From Chloroflexota bacterium (GTDB lineage: Bacteria; Chloroflexota; Limnocylindria; Limnocylindrales; CSP1-4): 64,000 nt of DNA. The stretch spans positions 4,946 to 68,945 of the forward strand of contig JAJYJR010000001.1 in NCBI GenBank assembly GCA_021789355.1, given 5' to 3'. Numbering within the stretch: the first letter of the stretch is position 1; each line of letters opens with the position of its first letter. This document shows positions 26,156 through 50,058 of the stretch, in pieces. The notes below the pieces were generated by a model. That model saw only the letters and a list, made by a program, of their open reading frames with translations, was not told the origin of the DNA and ran no database searches. The position numbers were made by a program, and so were the translations under genes.

Positions 26156-26200
26156 TTCGGTCACCCTCCGGGCGTTGCGAACCCTCGGTTCGACGCTGGG

Positions 26201-27748: not shown

Positions 27749-27788
27749 TTTGAACGGACAGGTGTCAGCGCATAGGAAAGGGGCAGGA

Positions 27789-31230: not shown

Positions 31231-34200
31231 CTAGTCCGTTGCCCGGACAGTTCCTCCGCCGTGCTTGGAGAGGCGCGGACGCACTCGAACCAGCTGAGGC
31301 CTGCGGAACTCCCGCGAGTTGGTCGACCACACAAAGGCGGCACCGGAGTCGAGTCGTGTGAGCTGGGACGGCAGCAGACCAGCCTCACCGAAGTCGGCGT
31401 TGGCCCGCTTGATGTGATCGAGCCAGGTCGGGGCCGTGAATCGGTGGACGAAGATGACCGACGAAAGCTCGACCACTTCCCTCGGGACCGACGGAGGATT
31501 CTGGGACGCGATCACCACGCTTGTGCCGCGATGACGCATCTCGCGGATCGTCTCGACGATCTTGTTGGTCAGCTTTGGCTGGTCCATGTACTTGTGCGCC
31601 TCGTCGAAGACGATGAGCTTGTTGAAGTGACCGCCCTTCCATTCCGCCTGCGAGAACCGCCCGAGCAGAATCATGAACAGCGACAGTGCTTCGTCGCTCT
31701 CTATGAGTTCATCGCGGAGATCAACGATCAGGAGCCGCCCCGGGACCAAGTGGTCGCCCACGGTGTCGGTCTCCGAGATGTACGGGCGGGCGAAGCGGAG
31801 CCGGGTCTGCGCGATCCGCTTCTGGCCGCTCGACAGATCGCTGACGTCGATCTCGGCCTCAAGCGCATCTGCCGAGATGCGCTCCCGAAGCCTGCGGAAA
31901 ATGCCGTTCATTGCCTTCGAGTACATCTGGTCGCCCCCCTCAATCCCCATGAGGAGCTTCCAGTCGTCGAGTCGGAGTTCGTTGGCGCCGAGCAACATCG
32001 GCCGCACGTCGAGGCCCGGGAAATCAGCCGCGCGGTCCGAGACGAGATCGGGTGGGACGAGGATGCGGACGTCGTCCACACCTGTCGGCACGGCGCCATA
32101 GGTGCTGAGCAGGTCGCGAACGGCGGCCTCGTCGTCGTTCGGGTGTGCCATCGCCGCGAACTCGGGCACGTACGAGTTGTCGGTCGAGTAGTGGAACACG
32201 ACGGCGCCGAGCGGACTCGGCAGCCGATTCACAGGCGTATCCTGGATGAGCGCGGCTTCGATGATGGTGCCAAGGGTGTAGCTCTTCCCCGATCCTTGGA
32301 CGCCGAAGACGGACACGACGTTCGTTCCGTCCATGTCAAGCGCGACGGGCAGCGCCCCCGGCACCCGCCCAATGACGCCGAACTGGCGACGTGACGGCGC
32401 CATGCCGATCACTACGACCGAGGCTGGATCTGGCCCGCCTGTCTGGTCTGCCTGCCGCTCCGGCTCGACCGTCGGTACATCGGGTGCCCTGCGCACGTCA
32501 CCCGTTTCAGCGCGACCGGCCTGAGCCTCCCCGGCTGGCACCGGCGATGGTCTGCCGCCCGCCGCGGTCCGGACGGTCTCCGAGAAGGACAGACTCGGCG
32601 GCAAAGTGGCGTGCCGCTCGTCCGGCCTCAGCAGAAGTCCCTCGATGCTGTCCCGCCCGATCTTCGTGAACTCGATCCCCTCGTCGACGAAGGTGTCGGT
32701 CCCGGGGCGTTCGAGGTCGAACACGAGCCCCAGCTCGGCGAACCCGAGCGTGAAACTGGAGTCGGCGGTGTCGATGAAAGTCCGGCAGGCGTCCGCGTAT
32801 CCGGGCTCGATCAGGCGGTAGCGGAGAGCGCGGTCGAGATAGCGGCGCATGGTAGTAATGACGTAGCGGAGACGCATCACGGCTGCCAGCGATCCTGGTT
32901 CCCGTCGATCCTCTGCGTCGAACATCGCCTCCCGCAGCGCCTTCCGCGAGTTCGCAAGCTGCTTTCGCATGGTCAGGGCGAGGTCGGCCGGTATCCCCAG
33001 ATCGCCCCCCGAGCGAACTTTCAGTTCGACGATGTGGAACGTGATCCTGCGTTCAGAGGGCTCGATCCTCACCACCGCGAGGTCGGAACGCGACAATCCG
33101 GATTCAGAATCGGCGGCGACTGCGCGGAACAGCTCCTGGTGCAGATCGAGCGGAATGACGAGTGACCGGCGGAGCGTCCCGTTGTTCTGAAGCCACACTG
33201 CGCCGAGCGCCAGCGAGAGTGCCTCGTCGGCGTGGTTGCGGTCAGCCAAGAGACGGAGGCTCGCTCCTGCTCCGACCGCCTGCAGCGAGTCGAGCAGGCG
33301 CTCGAGTCGGTCGTCTGCGATCTGCAAGCCATGTCTCGCCAGCGCGGGGCCGATAACAGCCCTAAGTTCGCTCCGTGACTTGGTCGAGACGAGCACGTGC
33401 CTCTCCGGGCGCGCGGTGAGCAAGTCTCCGGACTCCACGACGTACCGGGGCGTCGCTCCCTCCCCCGCCGGCGCATCGAGAAACTCGTCCCCAAAGACTG
33501 GGTCGATGGTCACGACCCAGTCCGAGGCGCGATGGACGGCATCGATGACGCTTTGTTTCACGCGGTCGAGCTCGAGCCGGACCGCCACATCCTGCACCGC
33601 AGTCCCGCCAAGCCGGACCGCTGCGGCGCCGTGAGCGCCCGCGTAGACCCGTTCGAAGAGATCGGAAGCCGTCGGCGAGGCGGCGACTCTTGTCCGCCAC
33701 GTAGGGGTCTGCCCCTCCAGACGGTAGACCGGCACGGGTTCAACGATCAAGCCGGACCCAAAAAGTGAGCGTCCGTCGGCAGTGCGATCCACCGCTTCGA
33801 GTTCGGGCTCGAACCAGTCGAGCAGGAATGTCAGGTGGGCCGGGTAGCTGGAAGGATCTTTGATGAGATCCTCGAGACGGTGCTTGCTGTAGGTGAAGCG
33901 CGGCGCAAGTGAGTCCGGGGATGCGGCGAGAAGTGCATCGGCCGCGTCGTTGCGCCAGCGCCGGGCCTCGTCCGGACTTGCCATGAAATCGTCGATCGCA
34001 CGTCCGAGTTCGTCGTGGTACAGCTCGGACGCGAACATCCGTACGACGTAGCGGCGGGTTCTGCCGAGCGGCTCGTCCTGAAGCTCGAGCAACGACTGCA
34101 GGACGGCCTCGCCGCCGCCAGGCTGAATGAAGTTGACAACGGCAGTCTCGACCCAAGGGTGGGCGGACAAGTACCTGACGATACGGCGAGTGATTTCGTG

Positions 34201-36276
34201 CGGGGCGGCAACCGAGATCCCGGGGGCAGCGAAGCCAAGCCAGTGGGCCAACCTTGACAGGGTCGCGGGGACGTCGCTCGCGGACGGGCGCAGGTAGACC
34301 GTCCAGTCGATGCCAAAGCATGCGACCGAGCGAAGCAGCCCGTGGTCTCCGGGAACGACCATAGGAACGTGCTGGGGCAGCACGCCATCGATGGCCGCGG
34401 TGAGGCCGGGGACAGTCGGACCCCCTCGTCGCAGAGCTTCAGCGAACGCGGTCGAGTGCCGCAGCCGCCAGAGCAGCCGGAGCGGATGTGTCGGCCCGGC
34501 GAGCCTGAGCTCTCCGTGGCCGGGATCGCGCACGACCAGCTGGTCGACCGAGAGCAGAGCCGTTCTCGCCTCCGGATCCGGGGCATTCGAGATCGCCTCT
34601 AGCCACGAGTTCGCATATGCCTCGATGACCGGCGCGATGGCTTCAAGGTCGCCCAGCGCCACGAGAGGCGGAAGATCGCTCCCTTCGACGGGCAGGCGGG
34701 CATGCTGCACGGCGTCGAACGCCCGTTCTCGCGCGATAAGGAAGTCCTCGGGCACTCCAGTCGGCACTGCGAAGGCTTCCTCCGGCGTGCTCTCGCCGAA
34801 GCTCGTGGCGTACCGCCCGAGCGACCGCGGGTCCTCCAGCGTGTAGCGTTCAAGCTCGGAGAGCACGGGCGAGAAACGAAGCTCGAACGAATCGGCGACG
34901 TTCTCCCACCCCAGGCGGGCGAGCATCCGGCCCGAACGGGCGTCTTTGGAGAGGACGATGTGCTCGGCGCCGATGGGGCCATCGAATGCCTCGGCTCGCG
35001 CGACCAGTCGCGCCCCCGCAACGCTCGTCGCCGACCGAACGGTCGGCTCGGGTCCCGGCAGGTCGGTCTGGATGCGGAGGGTCGTGCTGAGCGCCGTCCG
35101 GACGAGGATGCCGGCCGTATCGCGGGCGACCAGCCGGAACCGGTAGAACCCGGGCTCCAGATCCGCAGCATCGACACGGAACGTCCACTGGCCGGACGTG
35201 GTCTTGGGCAGCTGTGCCCGCCTCTTGCGAGCGAAGACGCCGGTATCCAGCAAATCATCGTCGCTGTCTCCGACGCGGACGAGGTCGAGCACGAGTTCGT
35301 ACAGACCATCAATCTCGGCAGGCGCCGGTCTCGCGCGGTAGCGGATGCCGATCCGCGCCTTCGCCTTCTTGAGGGTGGGCTCGACATCGGCCGAGATATC
35401 ACCCGCGAGAGCGAGCACGCCCAGTTCCCGGAGCTCCACCGGCCCGCCCGGGTGCAGGGACGCGAAATCAACTCCCCGTTCCGCGAGCCTCGACGCGATC
35501 TCGTGGCGATCCAGCACGCCATCGCGCAGGGCGTCGGCCAGCCTCCGCTCTAGATCTCCGTCGCTGGTGGCGAGCTGTTCTCCGATCGAGCGAAGACGCT
35601 CGGCAGGCGGTTCCGGCTCGGTGAGCGACTCCATTGCACGGAGATTCCGAGTGAGGCGTCCCTTTACTCGCTCCTCGTCTTCCTCCCCGAGCGAGCGATC
35701 CGGGATCAGGCCGAGCGCGTCCAAAGCCTGACCGACTGTCTCTGGACTCGGGTCCCGCAGGATGCGCTGCAGGTAATCCACCTGACTTCGCGGGCTGATC
35801 CCCAGCGGAACCGCGAGATCCGTGACCTGCCGAACACGGGCCGAAATGGCGGGCGTCGTCGACGCGATCCGTTCCAGCAACTGGGCGCACAGCGTGACGT
35901 TGGCATCGCTGACGTCGACGACTTCGAAGGTGGATGCCCCGAAGCTGTCCTCCGCCGCGAGCAGCAGGCCGGCCTCGAGGATCACAACGAGGCGCGCGCC
36001 CTGCGCGTCGATGGAGTTCCGAAGTTCGACGACCTTCGTCGGAGAAGCGTGCCACGCCTCGACGGGACTTGCGCGGACGAGGCGCACCACGTCGTCTCCG
36101 AGTCTCTCCCAGAGCACACGCGCAACCTGCTCAGCGATCGTCCCGGGAAGATGAGGAACCTGGATGCAGTGGCCCGGCCCACGTTGTCTGACAACTGATT
36201 CGACGCGGTCAGCGATGGTCTCGACCAGACCCGGCGGGGGGGCTCCCATGTTCTGAAGAGTCGTCGCCGTGCTCAC
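31231..36276 (-). CDS. Very large HerA/DUF87-type ATPase, MAD8/DptH-like defence protein
   Basis: A 1681-aa protein. The first 1200 residues have no recognised motif apart from a Pro/Gly linker at about 1230-1300. The C-terminal 360 residues form a HerA/FtsK-like hexameric ATPase: Walker A GVQGSGKSYTLG near residue 1329, Walker B KLIVFDEAHKYM near 1555, and a sensor region RHRGTSVVIASQNPPSVP. Size and layout match the ATP-binding subunit of methylation-associated defence (MAD8) and the DptH protein of phosphorothioate restriction. The ATG overlaps the upstream stop by 4 bp. Probably a DNA translocase or pump acting on invading DNA. Confidence 0.83.
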   Translation of the reverse strand: MSTATTLQNMGAPPPGLVETIADRVESVVRQRGPGHCIQVPHLPGTIAEQVARVLWERLGDDVVRLVRASPVEAWHASPTKVVELRNSIDAQGARLVVILEAGLLLAAEDSFGASTFEVVDVSDANVTLCAQLLERIASTTPAISARVRQVTDLAVPLGISPRSQVDYLQRILRDPSPETVGQALDALGLIPDRSLGEEDEERVKGRLTRNLRAMESLTEPEPPAERLRSIGEQLATSDGDLERRLADALRDGVLDRHEIASRLAERGVDFASLHPGGPVELRELGVLALAGDISADVEPTLKKAKARIGIRYRARPAPAEIDGLYELVLDLVRVGDSDDDLLDTGVFARKRRAQLPKTTSGQWTFRVDAADLEPGFYRFRLVARDTAGILVRTALSTTLRIQTDLPGPEPTVRSATSVAGARLVARAEAFDGPIGAEHIVLSKDARSGRMLARLGWENVADSFELRFSPVLSELERYTLEDPRSLGRYATSFGESTPEEAFAVPTGVPEDFLIARERAFDAVQHARLPVEGSDLPPLVALGDLEAIAPVIEAYANSWLEAISNAPDPEARTALLSVDQLVVRDPGHGELRLAGPTHPLRLLWRLRHSTAFAEALRRGGPTVPGLTAAIDGVLPQHVPMVVPGDHGLLRSVACFGIDWTVYLRPSASDVPATLSRLAHWLGFAAPGISVAAPHEITRRIVRYLSAHPWVETAVVNFIQPGGGEAVLQSLLELQDEPLGRTRRYVVRMFASELYHDELGRAIDDFMASPDEARRWRNDAADALLAASPDSLAPRFTYSKHRLEDLIKDPSSYPAHLTFLLDWFEPELEAVDRTADGRSLFGSGLIVEPVPVYRLEGQTPTWRTRVAASPTASDLFERVYAGAHGAAAVRLGGTAVQDVAVRLELDRVKQSVIDAVHRASDWVVTIDPVFGDEFLDAPAGEGATPRYVVESGDLLTARPERHVLVSTKSRSELRAVIGPALARHGLQIADDRLERLLDSLQAVGAGASLRLLADRNHADEALSLALGAVWLQNNGTLRRSLVIPLDLHQELFRAVAADSESGLSRSDLAVVRIEPSERRITFHIVELKVRSGGDLGIPADLALTMRKQLANSRKALREAMFDAEDRREPGSLAAVMRLRYVITTMRRYLDRALRYRLIEPGYADACRTFIDTADSSFTLGFAELGLVFDLERPGTDTFVDEGIEFTKIGRDSIEGLLLRPDERHATLPPSLSFSETVRTAAGGRPSPVPAGEAQAGRAETGDVRRAPDVPTVEPERQADQTGGPDPASVVVIGMAPSRRQFGVIGRVPGALPVALDMDGTNVVSVFGVQGSGKSYTLGTIIEAALIQDTPVNRLPSPLGAVVFHYSTDNSYVPEFAAMAHPNDDEAAVRDLLSTYGAVPTGVDDVRILVPPDLVSDRAADFPGLDVRPMLLGANELRLDDWKLLMGIEGGDQMYSKAMNGIFRRLRERISADALEAEIDVSDLSSGQKRIAQTRLRFARPYISETDTVGDHLVPGRLLIVDLRDELIESDEALSLFMILLGRFSQAEWKGGHFNKLIVFDEAHKYMDQPKLTNKIVETIREMRHRGTSVVIASQNPPSVPREVVELSSVIFVHRFTAPTWLDHIKRANADFGEAGLLPSQLTRLDSGAAFVWSTNSREFRRPQLVRVRPRLSKHGGGTVRATD

Positions 36277-37832
36277 AGCCGTACCCTCGGCCGCACGGTC
36301 TGCGCAAGGTAGGCGTCCGACTGATCCGTGAACACCCCGGTCTCACGGAGTCGCGCCCTGAAGCGTTGCGCGTTGTCGGCAAGCACGCGGATCGCAGCGG
36401 GGTCCTCGGCGTCCAGGGCGGGCGCGTGTGCAATGAGAAAGCCGTAACGATCCCGGAAGCGATCGATGAGCTGGTCGACGCGGAGAGGCGCCGTCCGGAC
36501 GCCCCCTGCCTCGAACCGCACCGCCGAGATCAGAACGAGAGTCTCGAGAAGACTCGGGGAAAGCACGGCCCGGCGCCGCCGCCGCCCGCCGAGCGGCTGC
36601 CTCAGGAGACCATCTGAAGCGTTCTTCCCGAGGAGCGAGTCAAGAAGCCATCGGTTGTAGCTCGTCCAGCGGCGTTCCGCGTACTGGCAGAGGACCGCAT
36701 GGTACGTGCGGAACGCGTTGAACCCCATTCGCCGGTGTCGATGTTCGAGTTCAGTGATCGCCTCCTTGGCGGTGTCGTCCTCCAGGTTGTTACGGAGATC
36801 GGCGAGCTGTATGTCGAAGTAGCGTTCGAGCTCAGATGCCTTGGCCTGCTTCTCGAGGCCTGCGATTTCCGCCAGCGTCGTGTGCGGATACGACAGATTC
36901 CGCTCCTTCTCCTCGTAGTGGGCGAACTGATCGAGTTTCTTGAGCGCGAGATGGCTGCGCACGTATCGCGCGATCCACTCCTCCTCTCGCGCCCACGCTG
37001 CCTCCGCATATTGGGCGATCTGCGAGTTCGCATCCTCCCCGCAGTCCACCACAAGCTCGACCGGCTGTGCGCATCTGCCCGCGCGTTCTCGCGCGTCGCA
37101 CGTCGAGCAGCGCCACTCGCCGCCCGAGCCCTCGATGGCCACGACGATTCGGAACATCCTCAGGAAGTGCAGGCCGAGGTGGAGCCCGGTTATCCGCCTT
37201 ATGTGGTCGACAATCGAGGCCCGCGGCAGCACTCGTCGATACGCAAGAACAGCCCGCAGATCCTCGGCGTACATAACCGCCTGCCGCCAGCACAGCGGCT
37301 CGACGTCCGGATCCGGACTCTTCGGTGTATCGGCAGGCTGGTCTTCGCCCAGCAGACGAAGCGCAAGACTCGGAAGATCGAGTGTCTCGTCCGTGCTGGG
37401 CTCGATGAACGCAAGCAACTCGTCCAGCAGCGCGGCATCCGCGTGCCGTATCCACGAATAGACCTGCCTCGATGCGAAGGAGTCGTTGTTCTCCTTCGGG
37501 TTGCGCACCCTTGCCGCGTCAAGGTGGACCGGCCGCGCTACGGTGAAGGCGTCGGGGTCCTTCTTCCTCGTGAAGACCAGATCCGCTCGAAGCCACGCCT
37601 CTGATGCCCCTGGGAGATCACGGAATCCTCGAAACAACTCGTTCCCTTCCATCTGTGCCGCCAAGTCCGCGACCGTGATCCTCTGCGACCCAGAGAGGCG
37701 TACAACTGGCCGGTTGTCGTGCTTTACGCGCAGCCACAGGAACGTAAGCAGCTGCTCGAGCTCGACGGCACGCACGTCGATGACGCTGATCTGCTCGAGC
37801 CGCCATTCCTTGTGCGCACCTTTGAGGAGCAT
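36273..37832 (-). CDS. Uncharacterised defence protein, MAD7-like, with a Cys cluster
   Basis: A 519-aa protein between the kinase and the large ATPase, overlapping the kinase stop by 1 bp and the ATPase start by 4 bp. No catalytic motif is recognised. A four-cysteine knuckle (CSTC at about residue 238, then Cys in AGRC and DCGEDAN) may bind zinc. The middle part is rich in charged helices (EEEWIARYVRSHLALKKLDQF, EKQAKASELERYF). By position it corresponds to MAD7 of methylation-associated defence systems, whose biochemical role is not established. Function inferred from operon only. Confidence 0.75.
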   Translation of the reverse strand: MLLKGAHKEWRLEQISVIDVRAVELEQLLTFLWLRVKHDNRPVVRLSGSQRITVADLAAQMEGNELFRGFRDLPGASEAWLRADLVFTRKKDPDAFTVARPVHLDAARVRNPKENNDSFASRQVYSWIRHADAALLDELLAFIEPSTDETLDLPSLALRLLGEDQPADTPKSPDPDVEPLCWRQAVMYAEDLRAVLAYRRVLPRASIVDHIRRITGLHLGLHFLRMFRIVVAIEGSGGEWRCSTCDARERAGRCAQPVELVVDCGEDANSQIAQYAEAAWAREEEWIARYVRSHLALKKLDQFAHYEEKERNLSYPHTTLAEIAGLEKQAKASELERYFDIQLADLRNNLEDDTAKEAITELEHRHRRMGFNAFRTYHAVLCQYAERRWTSYNRWLLDSLLGKNASDGLLRQPLGGRRRRRAVLSPSLLETLVLISAVRFEAGGVRTAPLRVDQLIDRFRDRYGFLIAHAPALDAEDPAAIRVLADNAQRFRARLRETGVFTDQSDAYLAQTVRPRVRL

Positions 37833-40800
37833 CAGCTGATCGCCTCGATCTGGATTCCTTCGGCAGCGAGTCTCCTGATCCCGTAGAACTGGCGTTCGCC
37901 GCGAGCCAGCAGCAACTCATCGGCCGGCATCGCCCCCAGCTGCTCCTTGAAGACGCGCAGGTTGAGCCAGGCACCCTGAAGCTCCTCGCGGCTGGGGCGG
38001 AAACCGGCCCGCACGCGCTCAAGCGTCTCGAACAGATCGAGGTCGACGTCGAGTTGGACCCCAGCGCGCTTCGAATGCCGGAGCCTGACCGTGTCGGGTT
38101 GAAACTCGATGTAGCGAAGGCCGGACTCCGGGATGACGGGTTCCAGCAAGAAATCAGTGGCGTGGTGAACTACGAAGGTTCGGTCGGATCCTCCGAACTC
38201 GCCGACCAATCGGACGGCGAGTCGCGCATCCGACTCTGCCGGAAACCGGCCCTCGCTGTTCGAGATTGCCTGCACGATCTTTCGGAGTGCACCCTCCGTC
38301 GACCCCTCGAGCATCTCAACGAACGTACCGAGGCTCCGGTAGGGAAACATCGAAACCCAGCCGGGATCCTCCCGCTCAAAGAAGTAGACTCGCCGGAGCG
38401 ACGCATGCACGAAAGTGACGAGGTCCGAAACACCGGCGACAGCCGGGTCGGAAGACCGAGCCGATTCGCGGGCTTCGCCGAAGTACCGGATGTCTGCATT
38501 GTCGGAATCCCCGTGCGGGAGGATTTCAGCAAGAGGCGCCGACCACAGCCGCCCGTCGAGTTCGGGATCCGCCGCGCGCGCGACGTCGAGCGTTGCGATC
38601 AGCTGAAGCAGCCGATCGCGTGCGGCGGAGGGACGGAAGGCAGGCGACGTCACCGCGCCCGCGAAAATCGCATTGTAGAAGCGGCCGGCTACGACAGCGC
38701 CGTCATCGGCGCCTTGGGCGAGCTCGACGATCTCCGAGCAATCCCGATCGCCCACCACCGCAAAGGCGAGCGCCGAGCGAAGATCCCGCATAGTGATGTG
38801 CAGCCGGCGCCGCAGTCGTGCGACGTCGAGCAGCTTGCGCGTGCGCTCCGCGATGCGAGGACCGAGGACCCGGTCTCGCAGCGCCTTCGCATTGGCCCGT
38901 GCATAGCAGGTTGTCGCTGCCACGCATCGCTCACACGGCGCCCATAGCGGCTCGGACGCAAGCAATGCAAGCAGCGCGGGGACCGCCGGCGAGGCATCCG
39001 ACGTCAGCGCGCGGAGATTGAGGTTGACGAGAACAAGCCACGGGGAATCAGGGGCTGCATGGCCGTCCAGAAGCCGTTCCACGGTCGATGCAAGCATCGG
39101 GAACTCGGCGCGATGGCTCTCCAGGAAGTCGAGGAGCCGGCCCTCGTTGATCGCAATCACTCGCGTCTCGCGCCCGGAAAGTGCCGGCTCGGATCCCGCG
39201 AAAGGCTCGAAGAACGCCGTGACGACTCGGTCGCTCGTTTCCTCCCCTTCGTCCTGGGAGCCGTCCCAGTTCGTCAGGAACACTCGGTTGGCGAGACGAG
39301 CCGTGACGCCGTTACCATCGGGGTGCGTGGCGACGGTTGCTCCGGCCCGCGCCAGTTCCGACTCGAGTCGCTGGACGAATGCCGTCTTGCCGTCTCCCGC
39401 GTTGCCCGTGACCACGACAAGCTGGTAAGTCCCGTCGAGAACGTCGCGTGTCAGGTGGTCGTCCAACGCCGTGGGCACGTAGAACCAATCCGTGAAGTCG
39501 TCGAGCCCGCGGGTCCCGGCGTTCGAGGTCCGCGATTGCGAGAAGAACGAGAGCAGCCGGTGCTGGTATGCATTCCAGTTCGGACGCACCAGCTCGTCGA
39601 CCGGCACAGGCGGTGGTCTCCGCACGGGTGGGGCCACCCTGCCAGCATCGCCCTTCAGCGCCGAGAGGCGGTCGCGCAGCTCCCCGGCCGAGCTTAGCCT
39701 GTCCCGCCGCTCGGGGGCGAGGCCTTCCAGGAGAAGCTGGCCAAGCCCCTCGGGTTCGGCCAATGCCGCAGCCTGGTCGCGCGCCTCTTGCCGGCTTAGG
39801 CGTCTGCCTGCGAGGAGCTCAGCGAGGACGGCGCACAAGGCAAACACATCGCACGACGCGTCCCATCCCGCCGTCGCGACATCGGCCGGTCGGTACGTCA
39901 CGGTACCAACTTCGGTGGCGCCGACGGTCGCCATTCCTCCGGACACATTGAAGTCGAACAACTTGGCGTGACCATCCGCCAGCACCAGCACGTTCTCGGG
40001 TTTCACGTCGCGATGCAGGAGCCCGTGCGTGTGCAGATGCTCAAGGACGTCGGCCAGTTCGGCGCCCAGTTCCAGAACACGCGCGGCAGGAAGGTGCTCG
40101 GAGACGAGCGCGTCGAGGGACGTGCCGTCGATCCACGGTGCAAGTTGGAACGTCTCGTGCCGCGAAACAGTGTTGCCGCGCCTCCTGATCGAGTGCATGA
40201 CCTCAACGAAGGTCGGCTTCACGATCCCCGGGTGATCAGGCATCGCCGCCAGAAGCTCGAACTCACGGCACGGATCCACGCGGTCCCGATACTCCGGCCG
40301 GACGAACTTCGCCGCAAACAGAGTCTCGAGCACCGAGTCGTAGACCTGGATGACGAGGGACAGCCCGCCCGTTCGGATCGGGCTGCCACGGACGACGTAC
40401 CGCTCGTCGATCTCGTCGTTCGCTTCGAACTCCACCGGGAGCCCCGGAGAGGTGGACAGCCGGCGGAGGAACTCGTCGGCGTCGGCCGGTCTCAGGTCCG
40501 GTTCGTCCTCCAGTGCTGCGCGAAAGCTCGGCAGCCAGTCGGGCGATACGCGGTCCAGCCCGCCGAAGATCGTGAGGCCGATCTTCGCCGCAGACCAAAC
40601 ATCGGACCGAGCTGAGCTACGGGCCGGAGTCTCCCGGACTTCGGGCGCCACGTAGTCACCGCTCAGCTCCGCTGCGTACCGCGTCACCGCGCCCGGGGGA
40701 ACAGGAAGGCGGGCGTAGTCGAAGTCTGCGAGGAGCATCCCGCCGTCGGGGTCGAGGTAGATGCACGACGGACTCAGGTTCCGATGTACGACTCCGCCCC

Positions 40801-41749
40801 GGTGGACCGACGCGAGTGCGCCCAACAGCTCCCTGAACAGGTCCCGCGCGTCACCTTGGTCGGGACGTGTCTCCAAAAGGAGGTGTTCGAGTGACTCGCC
40901 CTGGGGCCACTGCGTTACCACGACGAACCCGTCGTCCGCCTCCTCGACGGATGCCACGCGAAGCACCTGTGCTCCGCTGTTGCCCAGTCTCGTCAACGCC
41001 GTCAGGTCGCGAAGTGCAACGTCCTTCTGCGCCGCCGCGTCTGCCCCCGTCAACAGCGGATCCAGGCTGTATCGCTTGAGGCGCGAGGGCAGTGTCCCCG
41101 CAGGCGCCGCGCGGGGGACTGCGCGCCAGGTCTCCCAGTGTGCGGTCGCCTCGACGAGCTCGAGCAACCTCCACGCCCCGACCTCGTCCGCACCCTTGAC
41201 CGGGCGCGCGGCCGAGGTCAGGAGATCCGCAAGCCGCTCGGCGCCGTGATCTGGGAAGTCGGGCAGTCGATGATGCGGCTCGGCCCCGAGAAGACGCCCG
41301 ACAAGCTGGTCGGCGAGCACCACCTGCGAACGGAAGTTGCCCTCGAGATCCGGCTCCGCGTCGGAGACAAGGACCACGAGGGCCTCGAAGTAGGCGCTGG
41401 ACAGGGCAGGCGCGAGGTCCCTCACGTGTTCCCGGAGGATCTGAGCCTTCCGCTGCGTCAGCTTCACCGGGTTCGGCCGATAGGTCGCGCCTTCTCCGGC
41501 GATGCCGGGCAGTTCCCATTCGCGGTCGTTGCCTCTGATCCGACCGATCCACGCCTTGATTTCGATCAGGTGTGCGCGGCCCCTCGGCGAGAAGACGGCC
41601 GCGTCGCATTCGTAGAAACGGCCCGGCCTCCACTCCAGCCAGAAGTTCGCCGCGACATGCCAGTCATCTGGCAGCCGGTCGCGGAGCAGCTGAAGGATGA
41701 CCCTTTCGCCGTCGTTTTCGGGTTGCCCCGCAGAGTGGACGACCGCCAT
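37832..41749 (-). CDS. NERD-pseudokinase-Ser/Thr kinase-P-loop protein, PglW/MAD6-like
   Basis: A 1305-aa multidomain protein. Residues 1-130 are a NERD nuclease-related domain (ECDAAVF and IEIKAW). Residues about 205-425 resemble a kinase with degraded motifs (HRNLSP near 321, ADFDYA in place of DFG), probably a pseudokinase. Residues about 445-700 are a full kinase: [16 protein letters not shown] near 578, FDFNVSG and the TVTYRPADV activation segment. Residues from about 745 hold a P-loop NTPase (Walker [11 protein letters not shown] near 785) with a C-terminal helical region. This architecture matches PglW of BREX type 2 and the MAD6 kinase. It likely senses infection and phosphorylates partners encoded beside it. 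Confidence 0.87.
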
Positions 41750-41846
41750 CGCCTACCGCCCTCGGGAATAGCACGCCTTGACCAGCAGCCATTATGGCTC
41801 GCCGGCGCCGGCCGGAACTCGCGCTCTGCGCACAGGCCTCCGATCT

Positions 41847-43382
41847 CTATGGCAGCAAGGCCCCGAGCAGAGACGAAGCTAGTGACGTGCCTGAGGTCCA
41901 GCACGAGGCGAAGCCCGCCTCCGAGTCCGACTCCAGTGCGTGCAATCCTCCGACCGTGGCGCGACGGAGCGCGCGTTCGATGGCACCGGCTGCTCGCGGG
42001 ATCGTGTGCCGAACGTGCCGTCCGTCTCGCACGATGCCGGTCTCGCGACCGCCGACTACGGCCAGCACTGCCCTCAGATCACCGACCGCTCCGGTACCTT
42101 CCAGCCTCCATCCAGACTGTCCGTCGACAAGGAGTCGCCACTGCTGCCCCGCAAGCGACACCCGGCGGACCAAGTGCTCGAGTCGCATCCAGGACACCCA
42201 TCGATCGCTCAGAACCGGAGCGACGATGTCGGGGGCGAGGGAGGCTCGCGCCGCTCGAGCTTCGTCCGGTTGCCCGACCTCGACCCAGACGAGCCCGCCG
42301 GGTGTGACCAGAACGTGGTCAGGGAGACGATCGCGCGGGTCAGCCACGCCAACCGCCACGCGGCAGCGCCGGCCGTTTGTCACCGCCAGGTAGCGCTGGT
42401 CGGGGTGCAGGTCGCTGCCGAGGTCCCACTCGGGCCCCCACTCCGTGACCGGTCGAATGGCTGTGGCTGCAGCGGAAACGGCCTCCCGGAGTGCCCGATC
42501 CCGTCTCTTGTCGGCTACGACACGCAAGGCATCCGGTTCGGATGTAGCAACGCCCAGGCGCCGCGATACGTGGTGCCAGAAGGCAGGCCCAGCAGCTGCG
42601 TCAGGAGGCAGCCCGACAAGCGCCGAAAGCCGCGCCGCCGGATCGGCGGTCGCCGTTCCTCGCGACAGTTGTAGTCGGTAGCGCGGCAGATCGAACGAGA
42701 TGAAAAGCCAGTCTCCGTCAGCGGCATCGGAGGGGATCAGCTGATCGAACCGACCACGGCAACCGGCGCGCCCTTGGCCCCGCCACAGCGTCAGCACTGG
42801 GCCGCCCCGATCGTCAGGAACCACGTCGAGGATCTGCTGCGGCGCGAGCCCGGCCGCGGCGACAAGGCTTTCAGGGACCGGCACTCGGGAGGCACGGCGG
42901 AGCCGCGGCGAGATCGAGAGCCGAAGCGACCATCCGAAGTCCAGCCTGAAGGTCGCCGGGTTCGTCGACGGGTGCGGGATCTCGCGGGCCGGAGCATGCT
43001 CGGGGCAACGCAGGGGTCGCCGTCCGTGCAGGCGTGGCCGGGACCAGTAGTGTCCCTCCTCGCACCACAGCCTGACGAAGTCGCCCTGTCCCTCCGTGCC
43101 GCCGAGGCGCCCGCTCGTCGGGAGGGCCCCCCTCCGGACACGCAGATCCTCGCCTTCCCCGGCCTGCGCAGCGGCGGCGGCTGCAGGCCGCTGGACCGGC
43201 ATGGCGCTTCGGTTCGTGAAACGAGGCTCGGCAGGGTGCGTCTTTGCCGCCTTGTGCGCGTGGTCGGGACACGAGTCCGGGCAGGCCGCGCTGGTTGGCA
43301 GCCTCCACCAGTAGTGGCTGCCACGTGCGCACCAGGGTCGATCGAGCCTCCCCGGCCCGCTATTGGTCACTGGGCTCGACAT
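41847..43382 (-). CDS. Uncharacterised protein with two putative zinc knuckles (paralogue A)
   Basis: About 511 aa from the ATG at 43382; the frame also allows a start at 43490. Not recognised. Two N-terminal knuckles, WCARGSHYWWRLP with SCPDH, and WCEEGHYWSRPR with RCPEH, follow the pattern W-C-x(3-5)-H-Y-W-x-R-P-x(n)-C-P-x-H, which suggests Zn binding through Cys and His. The main body shares blocks with the next gene: LAPQQILDVVP, LFISFDLPRYRL, CRVAVGVADPRDRLPDH and VTPGGLVWVEV, and RWVSWMRLEHLVRRVSL. It starts the core of the kinase operon (97 bp before the kinase). DNA or target recognition is a guess. Confidence 0.72.
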   Translation of the reverse strand: MSSPVTNSGPGRLDRPWCARGSHYWWRLPTSAACPDSCPDHAHKAAKTHPAEPRFTNRSAMPVQRPAAAAAAQAGEGEDLRVRRGALPTSGRLGGTEGQGDFVRLWCEEGHYWSRPRLHGRRPLRCPEHAPAREIPHPSTNPATFRLDFGWSLRLSISPRLRRASRVPVPESLVAAAGLAPQQILDVVPDDRGGPVLTLWRGQGRAGCRGRFDQLIPSDAADGDWLFISFDLPRYRLQLSRGTATADPAARLSALVGLPPDAAAGPAFWHHVSRRLGVATSEPDALRVVADKRRDRALREAVSAAATAIRPVTEWGPEWDLGSDLHPDQRYLAVTNGRRCRVAVGVADPRDRLPDHVLVTPGGLVWVEVGQPDEARAARASLAPDIVAPVLSDRWVSWMRLEHLVRRVSLAGQQWRLLVDGQSGWRLEGTGAVGDLRAVLAVVGGRETGIVRDGRHVRHTIPRAAGAIERALRRATVGGLHALESDSEAGFASCWTSGTSLASSLLGALLP

Positions 43383-43514
43383 GGCATCCGCCGACGCGCG
43401 CCTCGACACCACTCGAGCGGAGCATCGGGCGCCGGCATCGCGCGTTCCGCCTGGAAGCGCGCGACGAGCGAGCGTTCGCGCCGGGTGCACGACTGCAACT
43501 CCCTGGGCATCCGG

Positions 43515-44945
43515 CTAGTCAAGGATCAGGGTCCCGAGGATCGACGACGCGGTTCGCAGGCCAGAGTGCCAGCGGGATGCAAACCCAACCGACGCGTCGG
43601 ACTCAATCGTCGCCAATGATGCCGCGCGTGCCCGTTGGATGGCCCGGTCGACGGCGATGGCGGAACGGGGAATGACGTGCTTCTGCCGACGAGGCTCGCG
43701 GATCGAGCCCGGTTTCCGCATGGCGATCTCATCCAGCGCGGAGACGAGGTCGCGGTACCGGCCTCCGCCCTCAACGCACCAACGGCCCGACTCGTCCACG
43801 GCGATGCGCCACTCTCGGCCGGAGAGGGAGAGTCGTCTGGCCAAGTGCTCCAACCTCATCCATTCCACCCAGCGTTCGCTGAGTGCCGGGGTGACGATAT
43901 CCGGCAGGAGGTCAGACCGCGCGGCGATTGCCTCTTCGACCGCGTCGACCTCGACCCAAACCAGCCCCCCCGGCGTCACCAGATACTCGTCCGAGAGGCG
44001 GTCGCGCGGGTCGGCGATTCCGACGGCCACACGGCAGCTTCGACCGCTGGTGACGGCGAGGAATCGATCGTCCTCCTCGAGAGTGCCGACAAGGTCCCAG
44101 CCAGTCGCCCAACCCCCAGCCGGGACCCGGCCTCGTACAGCCGCACTGACCGCCGCCTCCAGTTCCGGGTCACCCCTCGTTCTGGCCAGGTCGATCAGCT
44201 CGCGGGGATCCCTCGGGGACACGCCGAGCCGACGAGCGACGCGATCCCAGAACCTCGGGTCGACGGGCGATCCCGGCGGCAGGCCGACAAATGCAGCGAT
44301 CTGCTCCTGAGGCGACGCTGCCGTCGGGCGCGTCAAGGTAATCGTGTAGCGGGGCAGGTCGAACGACAGGAAGAGGAAGTCGCCAAACATTGCATCCCGA
44401 GGGACGATCCGCCCGATCGCTCCCCGGCACCAAGCGGTCCCCCTGCCGCGCCAAAGCTGCAGGGTCGACCCTAACCCCCTCGCTGGCACGGCATCGGTCA
44501 GCTGCTGCGGCGCCATGCCTATCGCGGCTGCCAGGGAGTCGGGCATGAGGAGCTGTGACGCGTGCCGCAAGTCGTAGGTAACTTCGAGCCTGAGCGACCA
44601 TCCGGAATCGAGATGGAAGCATGAGGGATCGGACGAGGGATGTCCGGGGTCCCCGGCCGCGTCGTGCAGGGGGCATGAGGCGGGAGCGCGGCCGCGCACC
44701 AAGGGCCGTGTCCAGTAGTGGGAGCCGGTCTCGCACCAGTGCCGGCTAACCGCCACGCGATCGTCGAAGCTGGTCCTGCGGCTCCTCTGGCTCGATACGG
44801 GTCGCCCCGATGTCCGCGTGCCTGAAGCTGCTGCCTCGAGCCGGGCAGTCAGAATGCGATCCCAGTAGTTGGACCAGTCGACCGAGTCCCAGTCGTCGGT
44901 GTTCCAGTCATACCAGTCCGTCGCAGAATCATGCCCGAGCAGCAT
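43515..44945 (-). CDS. Uncharacterised protein with one putative zinc knuckle (paralogue B)
   Basis: 476 aa from the ATG at 44945, preceded by AGGAG eight bases upstream; longer GTG starts are less likely. The first 35 residues are Trp/Asp/Tyr-rich (DWYDWNTDDWDSVDWSNYW), followed by one knuckle (WCETGSHYWTRP ... SCPLH). The body aligns throughout with paralogue A: MAPQQLTDAVP, LFLSFDLPRYTI, CRVAVGIADPRDRLSDE, LVTPGGLVWVEV, RWVEWMRLEHLARRLSL. The tandem duplication, diverged to perhaps half identity, suggests a heteromeric pair. First gene of the leftward defence operon. Confidence 0.72.
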   Translation of the reverse strand: MLLGHDSATDWYDWNTDDWDSVDWSNYWDRILTARLEAAASGTRTSGRPVSSQRSRRTSFDDRVAVSRHWCETGSHYWTRPLVRGRAPASCPLHDAAGDPGHPSSDPSCFHLDSGWSLRLEVTYDLRHASQLLMPDSLAAAIGMAPQQLTDAVPARGLGSTLQLWRGRGTAWCRGAIGRIVPRDAMFGDFLFLSFDLPRYTITLTRPTAASPQEQIAAFVGLPPGSPVDPRFWDRVARRLGVSPRDPRELIDLARTRGDPELEAAVSAAVRGRVPAGGWATGWDLVGTLEEDDRFLAVTSGRSCRVAVGIADPRDRLSDEYLVTPGGLVWVEVDAVEEAIAARSDLLPDIVTPALSERWVEWMRLEHLARRLSLSGREWRIAVDESGRWCVEGGGRYRDLVSALDEIAMRKPGSIREPRRQKHVIPRSAIAVDRAIQRARAASLATIESDASVGFASRWHSGLRTASSILGTLILD

Positions 44946-45272
44946 CCGCCGCTCTCCTGTTGCCCGCACCCTCACGTGCGGAGTCGTACCCAGAACGACG
45001 CCGCATCCAAGCCCTTGCCCGGCTCAGGGAGACAGCGTACACGTAGCGGCGACCGTCGGTCGTGGGATCTGCAACATGGTGGTCACCCGCCAGGCATGCT
45101 GGTCGCCTTTGTGAACGGTCCCGAGTGTCGGATTTCACGATCTGTTGTGCGTAGGCAACCGGATCACCTCAGGAATAGGGTCGAGACGGGCGATCCTCGT
45201 GACGCGCTAGTTGGCACGACGCGCACCGAAGCTCCGTCGCGTTGCGGTCATGGAAAGGAGAACGTGAGGGCT
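44946..45272. promoter_or_regulatory. Divergent promoter region of the two defence operons
   Basis: 327 bp between the leftward kinase operon and the rightward restriction-modification operon. No coding sequence is supported. It must hold promoters for both directions. A short inverted repeat CGACC-GTC-GGTCG lies at 45049-45061. AAAGGAG at 45254-45260 is the ribosome site of the methyltransferase. No C-protein-like operator was identified. Confidence 0.5.
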
Positions 45273-46412
45273 ATGATTGGCGGGCGGGGGTCTCTGGACG
45301 GAGGCAGAACGATCGCAGCACGGCTTGTCCGGACTGGTCTGAGCGAAACGGAGGCGGCGAGCCTCTGGTCTGTTCCGGTTGCTCAGCCCGAGCCGCACGT
45401 GCCGTTCCGGTTCATCGACCTCTTCGCCGGGATCGGCGGGATCCGCCTGGGCCTCGAGCGCGCCGGCGGCCGCTGCGTCTACACGGTCGAGTTCGACCGG
45501 TTTGCGATGCAGACCTACAGCGCCAACTTCGGCGAGCTCCTTGCCGATGGCAGCCGGAGGCCGGAGCCGCCGCGCGACATCTACGACGTACGGGTGACGG
45601 ACCTGCCCCCGTACGACGTCCTCGCGGCCGGGTTCCCCTGCCAGCCGTTCAGCCTCGCGGGAGTCAGCAAGAAGCTCAGCCTGGGGCGCCAGCACGGCTT
45701 CGAGGACAAGAAGAGCGGCAACCTGTTCTTCGAGATCATGCGGCTCGTCGACGAGGCCGGGACGCCGCCGCCCATGCTGTTCCTGGAGAACGTCAAGCAC
45801 CTCACCCGCCATGACAAGGGGAAGACCTTCCGGGTGATCCGGGACACCATCGAGGACCGCGGCTACAACCTCGCCTGGAAGGTCATCGATGCCCAGCCGT
45901 GGGTGCCCCAGCACCGTGAGCGCACCTTTATGATCGCCCTGCACCGGGACGTCTATGGGGACCGGTACTTCGAGTTCCCGGAACAGCGGCCGGAGGGACC
46001 GCGCCCGGTGCTCGACCGTCTGCTGGAGACCGGGCCGGTCGATCCGAAGTACACGCTGTCGGAGCACCTCTGGGGATACCTGCAGGACTACGCGGCCAAG
46101 CACCGGGCGGCCGGCAACGGGTTTGGCTACGGGCTGGTCGGCCCCGCGGATGTCGCGCGAACCCTCAGCGCCCGCTATCACAAGGACGGCTCCGAGATCC
46201 TGGTCGCCACAGGCGATCCCACGCCGAGGCGGCTGACGCCGAGGGAGTGCGCGCGCCTCATGGGCTATCCCGACGACTTCGTTGTCCCGGTCTCCGACAC
46301 GCAGGCCTACCGGCAGTTCGGCAACTCCGTGGCCGTGCCGGTCATCGAATGGCTGGGGCGCGCGATCGTGGAGCAGGGTCTGGTGGCGCCCCTTCCGAAC
46401 CCCGGTGACTGA
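45273..46412 (+). CDS. DNA (cytosine-5) methyltransferase, Dcm/EcoRII-type
   Basis: A 379-aa methyltransferase. Conserved motifs: I FIDLFAGIGGIRLGLERAG near residue 45, IV GFPCQPFSLAG with catalytic Cys near 123, VI FLENVKHL, VIII QHRERTFMIAL and X RQFGNSVAVPV. A 40-residue N-terminal extension precedes motif I, as in Dcm. ATG at 45273 is twelve bases from AAGGAG, while GTG 45264 is three, so either could be used. It modifies a C in the site protected from the adjacent EcoRII-type enzyme, plausibly CCWGG. Its stop overlaps the endonuclease start. Confidence 0.9.
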   Translation: MIGGRGSLDGGRTIAARLVRTGLSETEAASLWSVPVAQPEPHVPFRFIDLFAGIGGIRLGLERAGGRCVYTVEFDRFAMQTYSANFGELLADGSRRPEPPRDIYDVRVTDLPPYDVLAAGFPCQPFSLAGVSKKLSLGRQHGFEDKKSGNLFFEIMRLVDEAGTPPPMLFLENVKHLTRHDKGKTFRVIRDTIEDRGYNLAWKVIDAQPWVPQHRERTFMIALHRDVYGDRYFEFPEQRPEGPRPVLDRLLETGPVDPKYTLSEHLWGYLQDYAAKHRAAGNGFGYGLVGPADVARTLSARYHKDGSEILVATGDPTPRRLTPRECARLMGYPDDFVVPVSDTQAYRQFGNSVAVPVIEWLGRAIVEQGLVAPLPNPGD

Positions 46413-47616
46413 CCACGGCGCTCGCGTTGCACTGAAGCGCCTCACGGCGGTCGAGGTCGACCCGTCGCGATCGAACCAGCATGAGATCCAGGGCGGAGCC
46501 CTCCGGGAGGCACTCAGCTTCGCCTCCGGCCGAACCGAGGGCACGCTCACGGTCGTCTTCCTCGACGACGGCGACGAACCGCGGACGGATGCGACCGTCT
46601 ACACCCTGTCGAACGTCCGCAGGCGCCACCCTGAACGCGCCCCCGAATATCACCTCTACTACCGAAGCGAACTCATTCAGGGGGTCGCGCGCCCCGGCGA
46701 CCTGATCGTGGTGATCCGCGAGGACGAGTCGAACGACCTGACGGCACTCATCGCCCGTGCGGGGACGTCGGTCGAGGAGCGTCTCCTTGACCGCGTCTTC
46801 TCGCACACGCTGGGCGTGGGCGACGAGTTCATCGGGATCGAGACCCCGTCAGCGACCTCGGCTCGAGGCCAGCTGCTCCTCGGGCTCGCCGCCCCGGCTC
46901 CAGCCGAAGGAGCCGTCCTGGACGTGCGCCGGCATCCCCTATACGCCAGCGCCCTGGCAGCCGGCGTACTGCCGACGACGGCGGAGATGGCCCGTGCTGC
47001 GCACGAGATCGTCGAAGGGTTGGGGTACAGGGCTGCCGATCCCGACGCACTGATCGAGGCATACCTGGATACCGAGACTGCCCTGTTCGTTGCTCTGAAT
47101 ACCGAGCTCGGGCAGCGACGGGTCACCGCGCTTGCGTCTGGGGGAGCTGACTTCAGTGAACTGCTCGCGTTCTTCAGGGCGAACCTCAATGCCGCTCGGT
47201 CGCGGCGTGGTGCCAGTCTGCAGCACCACTTTGCGGCAGTGCTGGATCGGACTGGACTTGCCTACACTGCCCAGTGCACGACGGAGCGGAGGGAAACGCC
47301 CGACTTTGTGCTTCCTGGGTGCACCGCGTACCACGATGCCGCCTTCCCGGCTGACCGGCTCCGGATGGTGGCATGCAAGTCGACGGCGCGGGAACGCTGG
47401 CGGCAAGTCCTGCGTGAAGCCCGCCGGATCGAGCAGAAGTACCTCCTCACCCTCGATGACCAGCTCACGGACCAGACCGTCAGAGCGATGGTCGATGCAC
47501 AACTCCGCCCGTTCCTCCCTCGAGCACTCCGGGAGAGGGCCTACGCGCGACGGGTTGTCAGCGAGCTTCTTGGGAGCGTGACCGACTTGGTCGCTGCTCT
47601 TCGCGAGGCAGCGTAG
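46405..47616 (+). CDS. Type II restriction endonuclease, EcoRII family
   Basis: A 403-aa protein, practically the length of EcoRII (404). GTG start at 46405 lies within the end of the methyltransferase gene. N-terminal part (to about 190) would be the effector DNA-binding domain. The C-terminal part has the EcoRII-C PD-(D/E)XK core: RRETPDFVLPG near residue 298, then DRLRMVACKSTARERWRQVL near 318, followed by EARRIEQKYLLTLDDQLT. Cleaves unmodified DNA at the site methylated by the neighbour. EcoRII enzymes need two sites (type IIE). Confidence 0.85.
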   Translation: MTDHGARVALKRLTAVEVDPSRSNQHEIQGGALREALSFASGRTEGTLTVVFLDDGDEPRTDATVYTLSNVRRRHPERAPEYHLYYRSELIQGVARPGDLIVVIREDESNDLTALIARAGTSVEERLLDRVFSHTLGVGDEFIGIETPSATSARGQLLLGLAAPAPAEGAVLDVRRHPLYASALAAGVLPTTAEMARAAHEIVEGLGYRAADPDALIEAYLDTETALFVALNTELGQRRVTALASGGADFSELLAFFRANLNAARSRRGASLQHHFAAVLDRTGLAYTAQCTTERRETPDFVLPGCTAYHDAAFPADRLRMVACKSTARERWRQVLREARRIEQKYLLTLDDQLTDQTVRAMVDAQLRPFLPRALRERAYARRVVSELLGSVTDLVAALREAA

Positions 47617-47618
47617 AC

Positions 47619-48029
47619 GTGGCAGATGTCGTGGACCGTGCCACTCGCAGTCGGATGATGTCAGGAATCCGTGGCAGGAACACGCGCCCGGAACTGCTGG
47701 TCAGGCGCTATCTCCATGCCGAGGGCTTCCGGTACCGCCTGCATGCTCGTCATCTCCCCGGCACGCCTGACATCGTTCTGCCGCGATACCGGGCAGTGAT
47801 CTTCGTCCACGGCTGCTTCTGGCACCGCCACGAAGGTTGTCAATATGCATACCGTCCGAAGTCGAACACGGAGTTCTGGGAGGCCAAGCTCAGCGCGAAC
47901 GCGGCGAGAGATGCTCGATCAGTTGACTCGCTCGCCGCTCTGGGTTGGAGCGTATTCATCGTATGGGAGTGCGACACGTCGCCCGCCACGTTGTCCCATA
48001 TTGGCAGGCTGATCCGGGAGCGGAAGTAG
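47619..48029 (+). CDS. vsr: Very short patch repair endonuclease
   Basis: A 136-aa protein with the full Vsr signature: SRMMSGIRGRNTRPELLVRR near the N terminus, LPGTPDIVLP with the catalytic Asp, and VIFVHGCFWHRHEGC with the structural zinc ligands. It nicks next to T:G mismatches produced by deamination of 5-methylcytosine, so it protects sites of the C5 methyltransferase from mutation. GTG start 2 bp after the endonuclease stop; same operon. Confidence 0.93.
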   Translation: MADVVDRATRSRMMSGIRGRNTRPELLVRRYLHAEGFRYRLHARHLPGTPDIVLPRYRAVIFVHGCFWHRHEGCQYAYRPKSNTEFWEAKLSANAARDARSVDSLAALGWSVFIVWECDTSPATLSHIGRLIRERK

Positions 48030-48606: not shown

Positions 48607-50058
48607 GTGCCGCGGTTCGTTGGGCGGGGTCGAGAGCTACGTGCGCTCCAGGCCGAGCTCGACGAGTGCCAACAGACCGGACAGGGCCGCCTCGTCACCA
48701 TTCGAGGTCGACGGCAGGTTGGCAAGAGCGCGCTCGCCGAACGATGGCTCGAAGGCTACGGTGGCCCTGCCGTGTTCTTCGAGGCTCATGGCTACACCGA
48801 GACGCGGGAACTCGGACGGTTTCGCGACGCGCTCGCGGCGTCTTCGCTGCCCTCGGCTGCGCAGGCGTCGGGCGTCACCTTCGGCGATTGGCAGGCGGCC
48901 CTGGTCACCGCGGCGGCAAACGCGTGCCGGGAACGGCCATCCGTCATCGTTCTCGACGAGTTCCCGGATCTGTGCGACAGGGTTCGAGACGCCGATGGCA
49001 ACGCAGCGCCCAGCCCGCAGGAAGGGGCGATCCGGGCGGCGTGGCGAGAGTTGCAGAAGTTGCCGGTGATGGTTGTTCTCATCGGCTCCGACCTCTCGAT
49101 GATGACTCGGCTCACGACATACGGCTTCCCGTTGTTTCAGCGGCCGACGCGTCAGATGGTCGTGGAGCCACTGTCTCCACTCGAGGTTTCCCAGATCACA
49201 GGTCGAAGCGGAGACGCTGCGATCGATGCCTACCTCGTCACTGGCGGCTTTCCGAAGATCGTCGATCTGTGGCGCGTCGGCAGCCTGGAGTCGTTTCTGC
49301 GCAAGGAGCTCGCAGATCCGAGCTCGGAGTATGTGACGGCGGCCGCGCGAATCCTCGATGGCGAGCTACCGGCTGCGATTGCGGCCCGAACGGTGTTGTC
49401 CGTCATTGGTGCCGGCGAGCGAACGCACAAGGGCATCGTTGACGGGACGGGCATCGAGGGAAAGAACCTGGGGTATCCACTCCGCACCTTGGCCGACAAG
49501 GGCCTCATCACTTCGGCGCTTCCGCTCTCAACCGCCCGGTCTGATGCGCGTCGCTACCGCGTGGCCGACCCCTATCTGCGTTTCTGGCTCCGCTTCATCG
49601 AGCCGATCCGTGGCGAGATCGACCGCGGCATCGGAGCAACGAATGCCGGCCGGATAGCGCGAGCCTTCTTGGACTACTCCGGCCTCGCCGTCGAACCGAT
49701 CGTCCGCTCTGCACTCGAGCGAATGAGTGCGGCTGGCGATGAACGCTTGGGGGGAGGAAGGATCGTCGGCGGCTTCTGGACGAAGGACAACCAAGTCGAG
49801 ATCGATCTCGTGGGAGCCGATCGGGAGGAGCCCGGCGACAAGCTCCAGCTGAGCTTCGTCGGAACGATCAAATGGCGGTCCGCCAAGGCCCTCGACGGAT
49901 CTGACATCGCCCGGCTGGAGGCTGCCACTCTCCGCCTGGCCGGCGCCAACCGAGACACCCCTGTCGTTGCCGTATCGAGGCGCGGCTTCGAGCGTATCGC
50001 CCGCCCCGTCGCGGAAGTCACCGCGGAGGAGCTGCTCGCAGCCTTCCCGGCGGACTGA
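48607..50058 (+). CDS. AAA ATPase with DUF234-like nuclease-fold C terminus
   Basis: A 483-aa protein of the archaeal-type ATPase/DUF234 family. N-terminal ATPase: VGRGRELRALQAEL, Walker A GRRQVGKSALAERWL near residue 35, Walker B SVIVLDEFPDL near 115. Middle winged-helix region with GIVDGTGIEGKNLGYPLRTL, then RYRVADPYLRFWLRFIEP. The C-terminal NQVEIDLVG ... GTIKWRS has the D-x(n)-IK spacing of PD-(D/E)XK nuclease-fold domains. Such proteins are common in defence islands and near toxin genes, but function is not settled. GTG start with GTAGGGACG and no strong ribosome site. Confidence 0.8.
   Translation: MPRFVGRGRELRALQAELDECQQTGQGRLVTIRGRRQVGKSALAERWLEGYGGPAVFFEAHGYTETRELGRFRDALAASSLPSAAQASGVTFGDWQAALVTAAANACRERPSVIVLDEFPDLCDRVRDADGNAAPSPQEGAIRAAWRELQKLPVMVVLIGSDLSMMTRLTTYGFPLFQRPTRQMVVEPLSPLEVSQITGRSGDAAIDAYLVTGGFPKIVDLWRVGSLESFLRKELADPSSEYVTAAARILDGELPAAIAARTVLSVIGAGERTHKGIVDGTGIEGKNLGYPLRTLADKGLITSALPLSTARSDARRYRVADPYLRFWLRFIEPIRGEIDRGIGATNAGRIARAFLDYSGLAVEPIVRSALERMSAAGDERLGGGRIVGGFWTKDNQVEIDLVGADREEPGDKLQLSFVGTIKWRSAKALDGSDIARLEAATLRLAGANRDTPVVAVSRRGFERIARPVAEVTAEELLAAFPAD

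Follow-up and report, generated by a model that had tools for sequence, protein, structure and literature searches.

Introduction

The methylation-associated defence systems (MADS) and the DndFGH and SspFGH systems share a trio of restriction proteins, and they are the closest described relatives of the locus analyzed here. The accessible text of PMC10853773 describes a subset of DndF proteins that combine a NERD domain with an inactive and an active kinase, a DndG with three winged helix-turn-helix (HTH) domains and a DndH that joins a restriction endonuclease to a HerA/FtsK module; according to the same portion of that source, DndFGH acts without an inbuilt modification module and phosphorothioation genes are optional in the family. 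The NERD-kinase layout of DndF is likewise described in the available part of PMC12839542, and protection by SspFGH requires each of the three genes in the sections available of PMC8092258. In canonical MADS the trio is accompanied by a methyltransferase (MAD2) and a specificity (S) subunit (MAD5). Here we analyze a stretch of 64,000 nucleotides (68% G+C) from contig JAJYJR010000001.1 of the Chloroflexota assembly GCA_021789355.1, hereafter the window, in which a leftward operon encodes two zinc-knuckle paralogues, A and B, followed by a trio of MAD6-, MAD7- and MAD8-like proteins (Table 1). We consider it moderately probable that these five genes specify a single anti-phage restriction complex of the DndFGH/MADS type, in which the paralogues, through B3-like DNA-binding domains, act as targeting subunits that replace the methyltransferase and the S subunit.

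A MAD6-MAD7-MAD8-like trio

Open reading frames (ORFs) were identified with Pfam (28 window ORFs), PADLOC (10 ORFs) and NCBIfam. The three large proteins of the operon resemble the NCBIfam models of MAD6 (2e-89), MAD7 (2e-100) and MAD8 (4e-28) and score below all three MADS equivalog cut-offs (301 of 460, 337 of 410 and 98.6 of 175 bits, respectively); a canonical actinobacterial MADS locus passes the cut-offs for the four of its proteins that were scanned (MADS2, 5, 6 and 7). PADLOC reports SspF similarity over the latter half of the kinase protein (1.6e-20), SspG in the protein of 519 amino acids (aa; 6.2e-9) and HerA (2.8e-8). Motifs were compared across seven loci, comprising the window, a Patulibacter metagenome-assembled genome (MAG) and five canonical MADS loci. 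The NERD E-x-D and D/E-x-K residues, the P-loop GNAGDGKT, and the PD-(D/E)xK-type motif and HerA Walker motifs of the MAD8-like protein are kept throughout, and a pseudokinase precedes a kinase in all seven loci, with HCD replacing HRD in three of the canonical ones. The kinase of the window MAD6-like protein, with HRD and DFN, appears to be active, and in the MAD8-like protein the nuclease motif lies at about residues 1064-1086, with Walker A at about 1325 and Walker B at about 1555. Identity between the window and Patulibacter trios is 40-45%, and both are 24-32% identical to the canonical proteins (26-32% for the window trio), values to be set beside the 42-47% found between two canonical actinobacterial loci and a betaproteobacterial one. 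As judged from these profile matches and motifs, the trio is, as a preliminary description of the window had proposed, MAD6-8-like; it is a homologue of MAD6-MAD7-MAD8, that is, of the DndFGH/SspFGH restriction family.

Zinc-knuckle paralogues with a B3-like domain

Paralogues A and B are 52% identical over 408 aa and both carry CCHH knuckles of the pattern W-C-x(3-4)-H-x-W ... C-P-x-H, A having a single knuckle and B two, in keeping with their initial description as zinc-knuckle paralogues. In A the knuckle occupies about residues 70-94; next come a DNA-binding domain of B3-like type (about 112-208) and, at the C terminus, a domain of unrecognised fold. B has the same core. Likely full-length members of the family measure 391-578 aa, and their C-terminal region is conserved over about 270 residues. 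The assignment of the central domain to the B3 DNA-binding fold comes from comparison of structure models, which suggest that the paralogues are sequence-reading DNA binders. The Pfam B3 model yields no match in 15 family members at E values up to 10, a sequence search of the PDB with the family returns no relevant solved chain, and PHROGs gives nothing for A, B and two relatives beyond a single match at chance level (E 0.04), in one of the relatives. It had been suggested that the paralogues stand in for both the recognition and the modification components of MADS. The B3-like fold makes the first half of that proposal concrete; the second half finds no support, nothing suggesting a methyltransferase in either protein. 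In the paralogue tree, A joins P0008 of contig 21816 (94/93) and B is not firmly placed.

By sequence, the only distant kin of the B3-like module are two large HTH proteins from the Patulibacter phylum (L026, 1492-3366, minus strand; L027, 10-2334, plus strand), which carry it near their C-terminal part and one of which matches Sigma70_r4 above the cut-off; they may represent the source or a sister family of the paralogues. Three other relatives (P0009, P0010 and P0011) have an extra N-terminal domain, conserved and bearing a CxxC pair, that is found neither in A nor in B. In genomes from the Patulibacter class (L021, L022, L024 and L025), short stretches, some at the ends of other ORFs, match the knuckle portion of the family profile; this looks like a lineage-typical zinc knuckle that none of the Pfam models matching here covers.

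Comparison with canonical MADS loci

The adenine methyltransferase and the S subunit had been reported as missing from the locus, and our searches agree. When four MAD2-type and three MAD5-type canonical proteins were compared with the window by tblastn, only chance matches emerged (lowest E 0.30), and no match to MAD2, MAD5, N6_Mtase or DndC is present in the 4.6-Mb Patulibacter MAG, whose completeness is not established. Conversely, both of the canonical MADS actinobacterial genomes examined have MAD2 and MAD5 above the cut-off and no member of the B3 family, such that the B3 protein and MAD2/MAD5 are reciprocally absent across these three genomes. With the B3 profile, A and B are the sole matches in the window; the Patulibacter loci yield a single gene, and the available stretches of the five canonical loci yield none. 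Four plasmid records match the window MAD7; in all three that were examined the trio has an N-6 DNA methylase gene upstream, and an S subunit is annotated in two of them, the hypothetical stretch of the third matching a MAD5 protein.

A quick, unrooted tree of MAD7 (91 rows, after five of the 89 non-window rows, each shorter than 450 aa, had been dropped) splits the five canonical rows from the 86 window-like rows with an SH-aLRT support of 100. Within the latter, the window belongs to a group of seven (99), and Patulibacter falls with P0077 in another (100). Both lineages thus lie outside the sampled canonical MADS, which argues against a MADS that has merely lost its methyltransferase; with five canonical rows, some of them long-branched, in an unrooted tree, the topology hints that the locus is not a single MADS locus freshly stripped of that gene. 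The placement of the trio inside a MADS clade, which the preliminary description had held to speak against a new variant, was therefore not observed with respect to the five canonical loci sampled.

An operon devoid of a methyltransferase is also what would be expected if the B3 proteins read modified phage bases, in a type-IV-like, modification-dependent restriction for which self methylation is unneeded. LlaJI.R1, which belongs to the McrBC group, is a relative by fold and lends some substance to this idea. We nonetheless regard it as very unlikely, for the B3 domains of CglI and NgoAVII bind a defined sequence, 5'-GCCGC-3', and not a modification, as far as the accessible text of PMC4267653 goes.

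Linkage of the B3 family with the trio

In the Patulibacter MAG, the single copy of the B3 family is the last gene of the operon, and its start overlaps the MAD8 stop codon by one base (TGATG). The pair of paralogues is accordingly not a constant feature. A B3-family protein is also paired with a MAD7 homologue on at least four metagenome contigs (21816, with two family members, 24299, 37901 and 54055), a shared contig being judged here by equal size and source alone. Together with the window and Patulibacter, six loci link the family to the trio. Among the six listed MAD7 homologues closest to that of the window (66-75% identical), all three residing on contigs longer than 20 kb are on linked contigs; the other three lie on contigs of 1.5-5.2 kb. 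In the loci that can be read or linked, the paralogue family accompanies the trio; family contigs too short to judge (2479, 2678, 3150, 3472, 5217 and 8619) are excluded from this set.

Some of the counts weigh against a fixed association. Among the matches listed, 22 of the 27 MAD7 homologues on contigs of at least 20 kb have no B3 partner (five have one), and a MAD7 row is missing for two of the eight family contigs longer than 15 kb (72451 and 17241). The MAD7 of Patulibacter itself is not among the listed homologues, and since the listings missed members known from elsewhere, distant trio homologues may either lack a B3 gene or have one that went unrecognised. The 22 partnerless homologues, and the fact that both readable loci are defence islands, could be taken to mean that the paralogues are mere neighbours of the trio, unconnected to it. 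This we judge highly improbable, given that the linkage recurs on the same strand in two lineages that are apart in the MAD7 tree, with a one-base overlap in one of them, and is repeated on the four or more further contigs.

A search of two overlapping genome sets, 399 from the Patulibacter class and 396 from its phylum, revealed no full-length family member besides that of Patulibacter and, as far as tested, no paralogue separated from the trio, the occurrence that had been named at the outset as contradicting a joint system. In these large alignment searches the best three (MAD7, 399 genomes), four (family) or six (MAD7, 232 genomes) matches were scored per genome. MAD7 itself was found by alignment in one of the 399 genomes of the class and one of 232 of the order, and by NCBIfam in three of the 396 of the phylum. 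Searches of plasmids with paralogue A or the Patulibacter B3 protein as query returned nothing, and four scans of viral_contigs gave no relative each. In genome_contigs the paralogue alignment recovered no relative among 240 pattern matches, in a scan that missed the Patulibacter member and is thus of low sensitivity, and MAD7 recovered one relative among 40.

Gene order bears in addition on whether the paralogues might be DNA-binding regulators (controller proteins) of the operon that stand outside the restriction complex. Their genes come first in the window operon, B3 domains also occur in plant transcription factors, and the related module resides in the two HTH proteins mentioned above, one with a Sigma70_r4 match. 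On the other hand, the Patulibacter gene comes last and overlaps the MAD8 stop codon, and the size of the proteins, with their long conserved C-terminal region, is not what a regulator would suggest; we find this explanation distinctly unlikely.

Neighbouring C5 methyltransferases

If A and B do aim the trio, the host sites must be spared, and a candidate mark, put forward in the preliminary description, is 5-methylcytosine. The B3 proteins would then bind sites protected by a resident C5 methyltransferase, and the trio would attack DNA without the host 5-methylcytosine pattern. A C5 methyltransferase adjoins the operon in the window, at about 0.3 kb. In the Patulibacter MAG there is no N6_Mtase match, and the matches for C5 methyltransferases number just two; they share the contig of the B3 gene, at distances of about 2 and 15 kb, within 17 kb in both cases. 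There is also a precedent in CglI and NgoAVII, where, in the available portion of PMC4267653, a C5 methyltransferase is combined with an ATPase and a B3-domain R-protein whose B3 domain binds the cognate site. Against such a role, the window methyltransferase has a dedicated endonuclease, within a complete EcoRII-type set, and the nearer Patulibacter methyltransferase precedes an AAA_5 gene that we read as McrB-like. The best PADLOC models for the methyltransferases of the two loci differ, so that no shared orthologous methyltransferase is demonstrated. Defence genes, moreover, cluster anyway, and the readable loci are only two. On balance, 5-methylcytosine as self mark seems to us possible, if rather doubtful.

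Beside the Patulibacter trio (L001, 16617-21518; L003, 5688-19801) lies a cluster of two C5 methyltransferases, the AAA_5 protein and ORFs of 414 and 158 aa without Pfam match. The nearer methyltransferase is followed by the AAA_5 gene and the 414-aa gene. The best solved relative of the AAA_5 protein is midasin, a McrB-type chain being reached at an E value of 0.027 only, and the nearer methyltransferase and these two genes may constitute a McrB/LlaJI-like restriction-modification (R-M) set. Viewed over both loci, it is conceivable, albeit unlikely, that a DndFGH/MADS-type complex lacking its own methyltransferase and aimed by exchangeable B3 proteins spares the host through the 5-methylcytosine of any neighbouring C5 R-M system, so that two unrelated systems would share one self mark.

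Organization of the locus

The ORF coordinates bear out the five-gene leftward operon and the divergent methyltransferase-EcoRII-Vsr set of the preliminary description. The ORFs of the trio overlap, the 1681-aa and 519-aa ones by four bases and the 519-aa and 1305-aa ones by one base. Several starts were corrected by reading the sequence: paralogue A probably starts at an ATG at 44945, behind CAGGAGAG; the methyltransferase probably starts at 45264 or 45273, with AAAGGAG upstream; and the EcoRII-type endonuclease probably starts at 46405. With these starts the two operons are divergent and do not overlap, the gap between them being about 0.3 kb. By Pfam and PADLOC, the rightward set joins a C5 methylase, an EcoRII-C endonuclease and Vsr in a single operon, and is an ordinary EcoRII-type R-M system with Vsr in which nothing unusual was seen.

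Table 1. Genes of the defence locus in the window (positions are those of the whole stretch).
Feature	Position	Strand	Remarks
Paralogue A	43515..44945	-	476 aa from likely ATG; ORF open from 44975
Paralogue B	41847..43382	-	511-aa form as in the protein collection; ORF open from 43490
MAD6/DndF-type protein, 1305 aa	37832..41749	-	NERD nuclease, pseudokinase, kinase, P-loop ATPase with SspF similarity
MAD7/SspG/DndG-like protein, 519 aa	36273..37832	-	PADLOC, NCBIfam, MAD7 tree
MAD8/DndH-like protein, 1681 aa	31231..36276	-	PD-(D/E)xK-type nuclease motif and HerA-type ATPase
C5-cytosine methyltransferase, Dcm-like	45264..46412	+	Likely start 45264 or 45273; ORF open from 44931
EcoRII-type endonuclease, 403 aa	46405..47616	+	GTG start 46405; ORF open from 46282; EcoRII-C
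Vsr mismatch endonuclease	47619..48029	+	Pfam, PADLOC

To the left, the defence genes abut a catabolic cluster (22471-30248, plus strand) with two MmgE/PrpD genes, a DHDPS-like gene, an isochorismatase, an aminotransferase and PrpF. Beyond Vsr lies an AAA_16/DUF234 ATPase with similarity to PADLOC PDC-S27 (48607-50058, plus strand), after which the neighbour ORFs scanned encode transporter and catabolic functions.

A putative exchangeable targeting module

In the mechanism that we favour, the paralogues would use their B3 domains to bind specific sites in DNA and deliver the trio to them, thereby occupying the role that the S subunit (MAD5) plays in canonical MADS, in an operon without a methyltransferase of its own. 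The DndF-like ATPase and kinase may sense or license the attack, and the HerA-type motor, with a PD-(D/E)xK nuclease, would travel along the DNA and cut it; the motifs for both activities are present in the MAD8-like protein. The host sites could be spared by site avoidance, by a second licensing signal or by 5-methylcytosine from a resident R-M system.

As far as we have searched, the new element is the association of the knuckle/B3 paralogues with a MAD6-8-like trio, the trio type and the EcoRII set being already known. We found no description of a MADS or DndFGH variant with B3 proteins in the literature searched, mostly outside subscription papers. Among the matches listed there was no defence paper containing "B3 domain", and PMC10853773 and PMC12839542 use neither that term nor "EcoRII" in their main texts. 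The locus bears on how DndFGH- and MADS-type complexes find their targets and spare the host. If our reading is correct, the methyltransferase and the S subunit have gone and a B3/zinc-knuckle family has entered the operon, which would make the targeting module exchangeable, and this exchange is what should chiefly surprise a specialist; B3 domains would, besides, gain a new prokaryotic setting outside restriction endonucleases proper.

Relation to known systems

The divergent set of the window is an ordinary member of the EcoRII R-M systems with Vsr. The leftward operon shares with the PglW protein of Type 2 BREX the half of its kinase protein made up of NERD, pseudokinase and kinase, and differs from it in the C-terminal half, which is SspF/DndF-like; Pfam recognised no PglX, PglZ or BrxC among the 28 window ORFs, nor did PADLOC among the 10 it covered. 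With DndFGH/SspFGH, in the layout given in the accessible text of PMC10853773, it has in common the NERD domain, the inactive and active kinases and the P-loop ATPase, a DndG-like protein and a DndH-like restriction endonuclease with HerA. No gene for phosphorothioation was recognised among the neighbours scanned in the window, and the DndC model matched in none of three genomes, the Patulibacter MAG included. CglI and NgoAVII resemble it in combining a B3 recognition protein with an ATPase and in having a C5 methyltransferase in the system, as described in the available part of PMC4267653; there, B3 is fused to a PLD nuclease, whereas the nuclease and motor motifs of the window reside in the MAD8-like protein. 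MADS, finally, matches the window in three homologous proteins, MAD6, MAD7 and MAD8, in their order and in their common motifs, and differs from it in the place of MAD2 and MAD5, where the window operon has B3/zinc-knuckle proteins instead.
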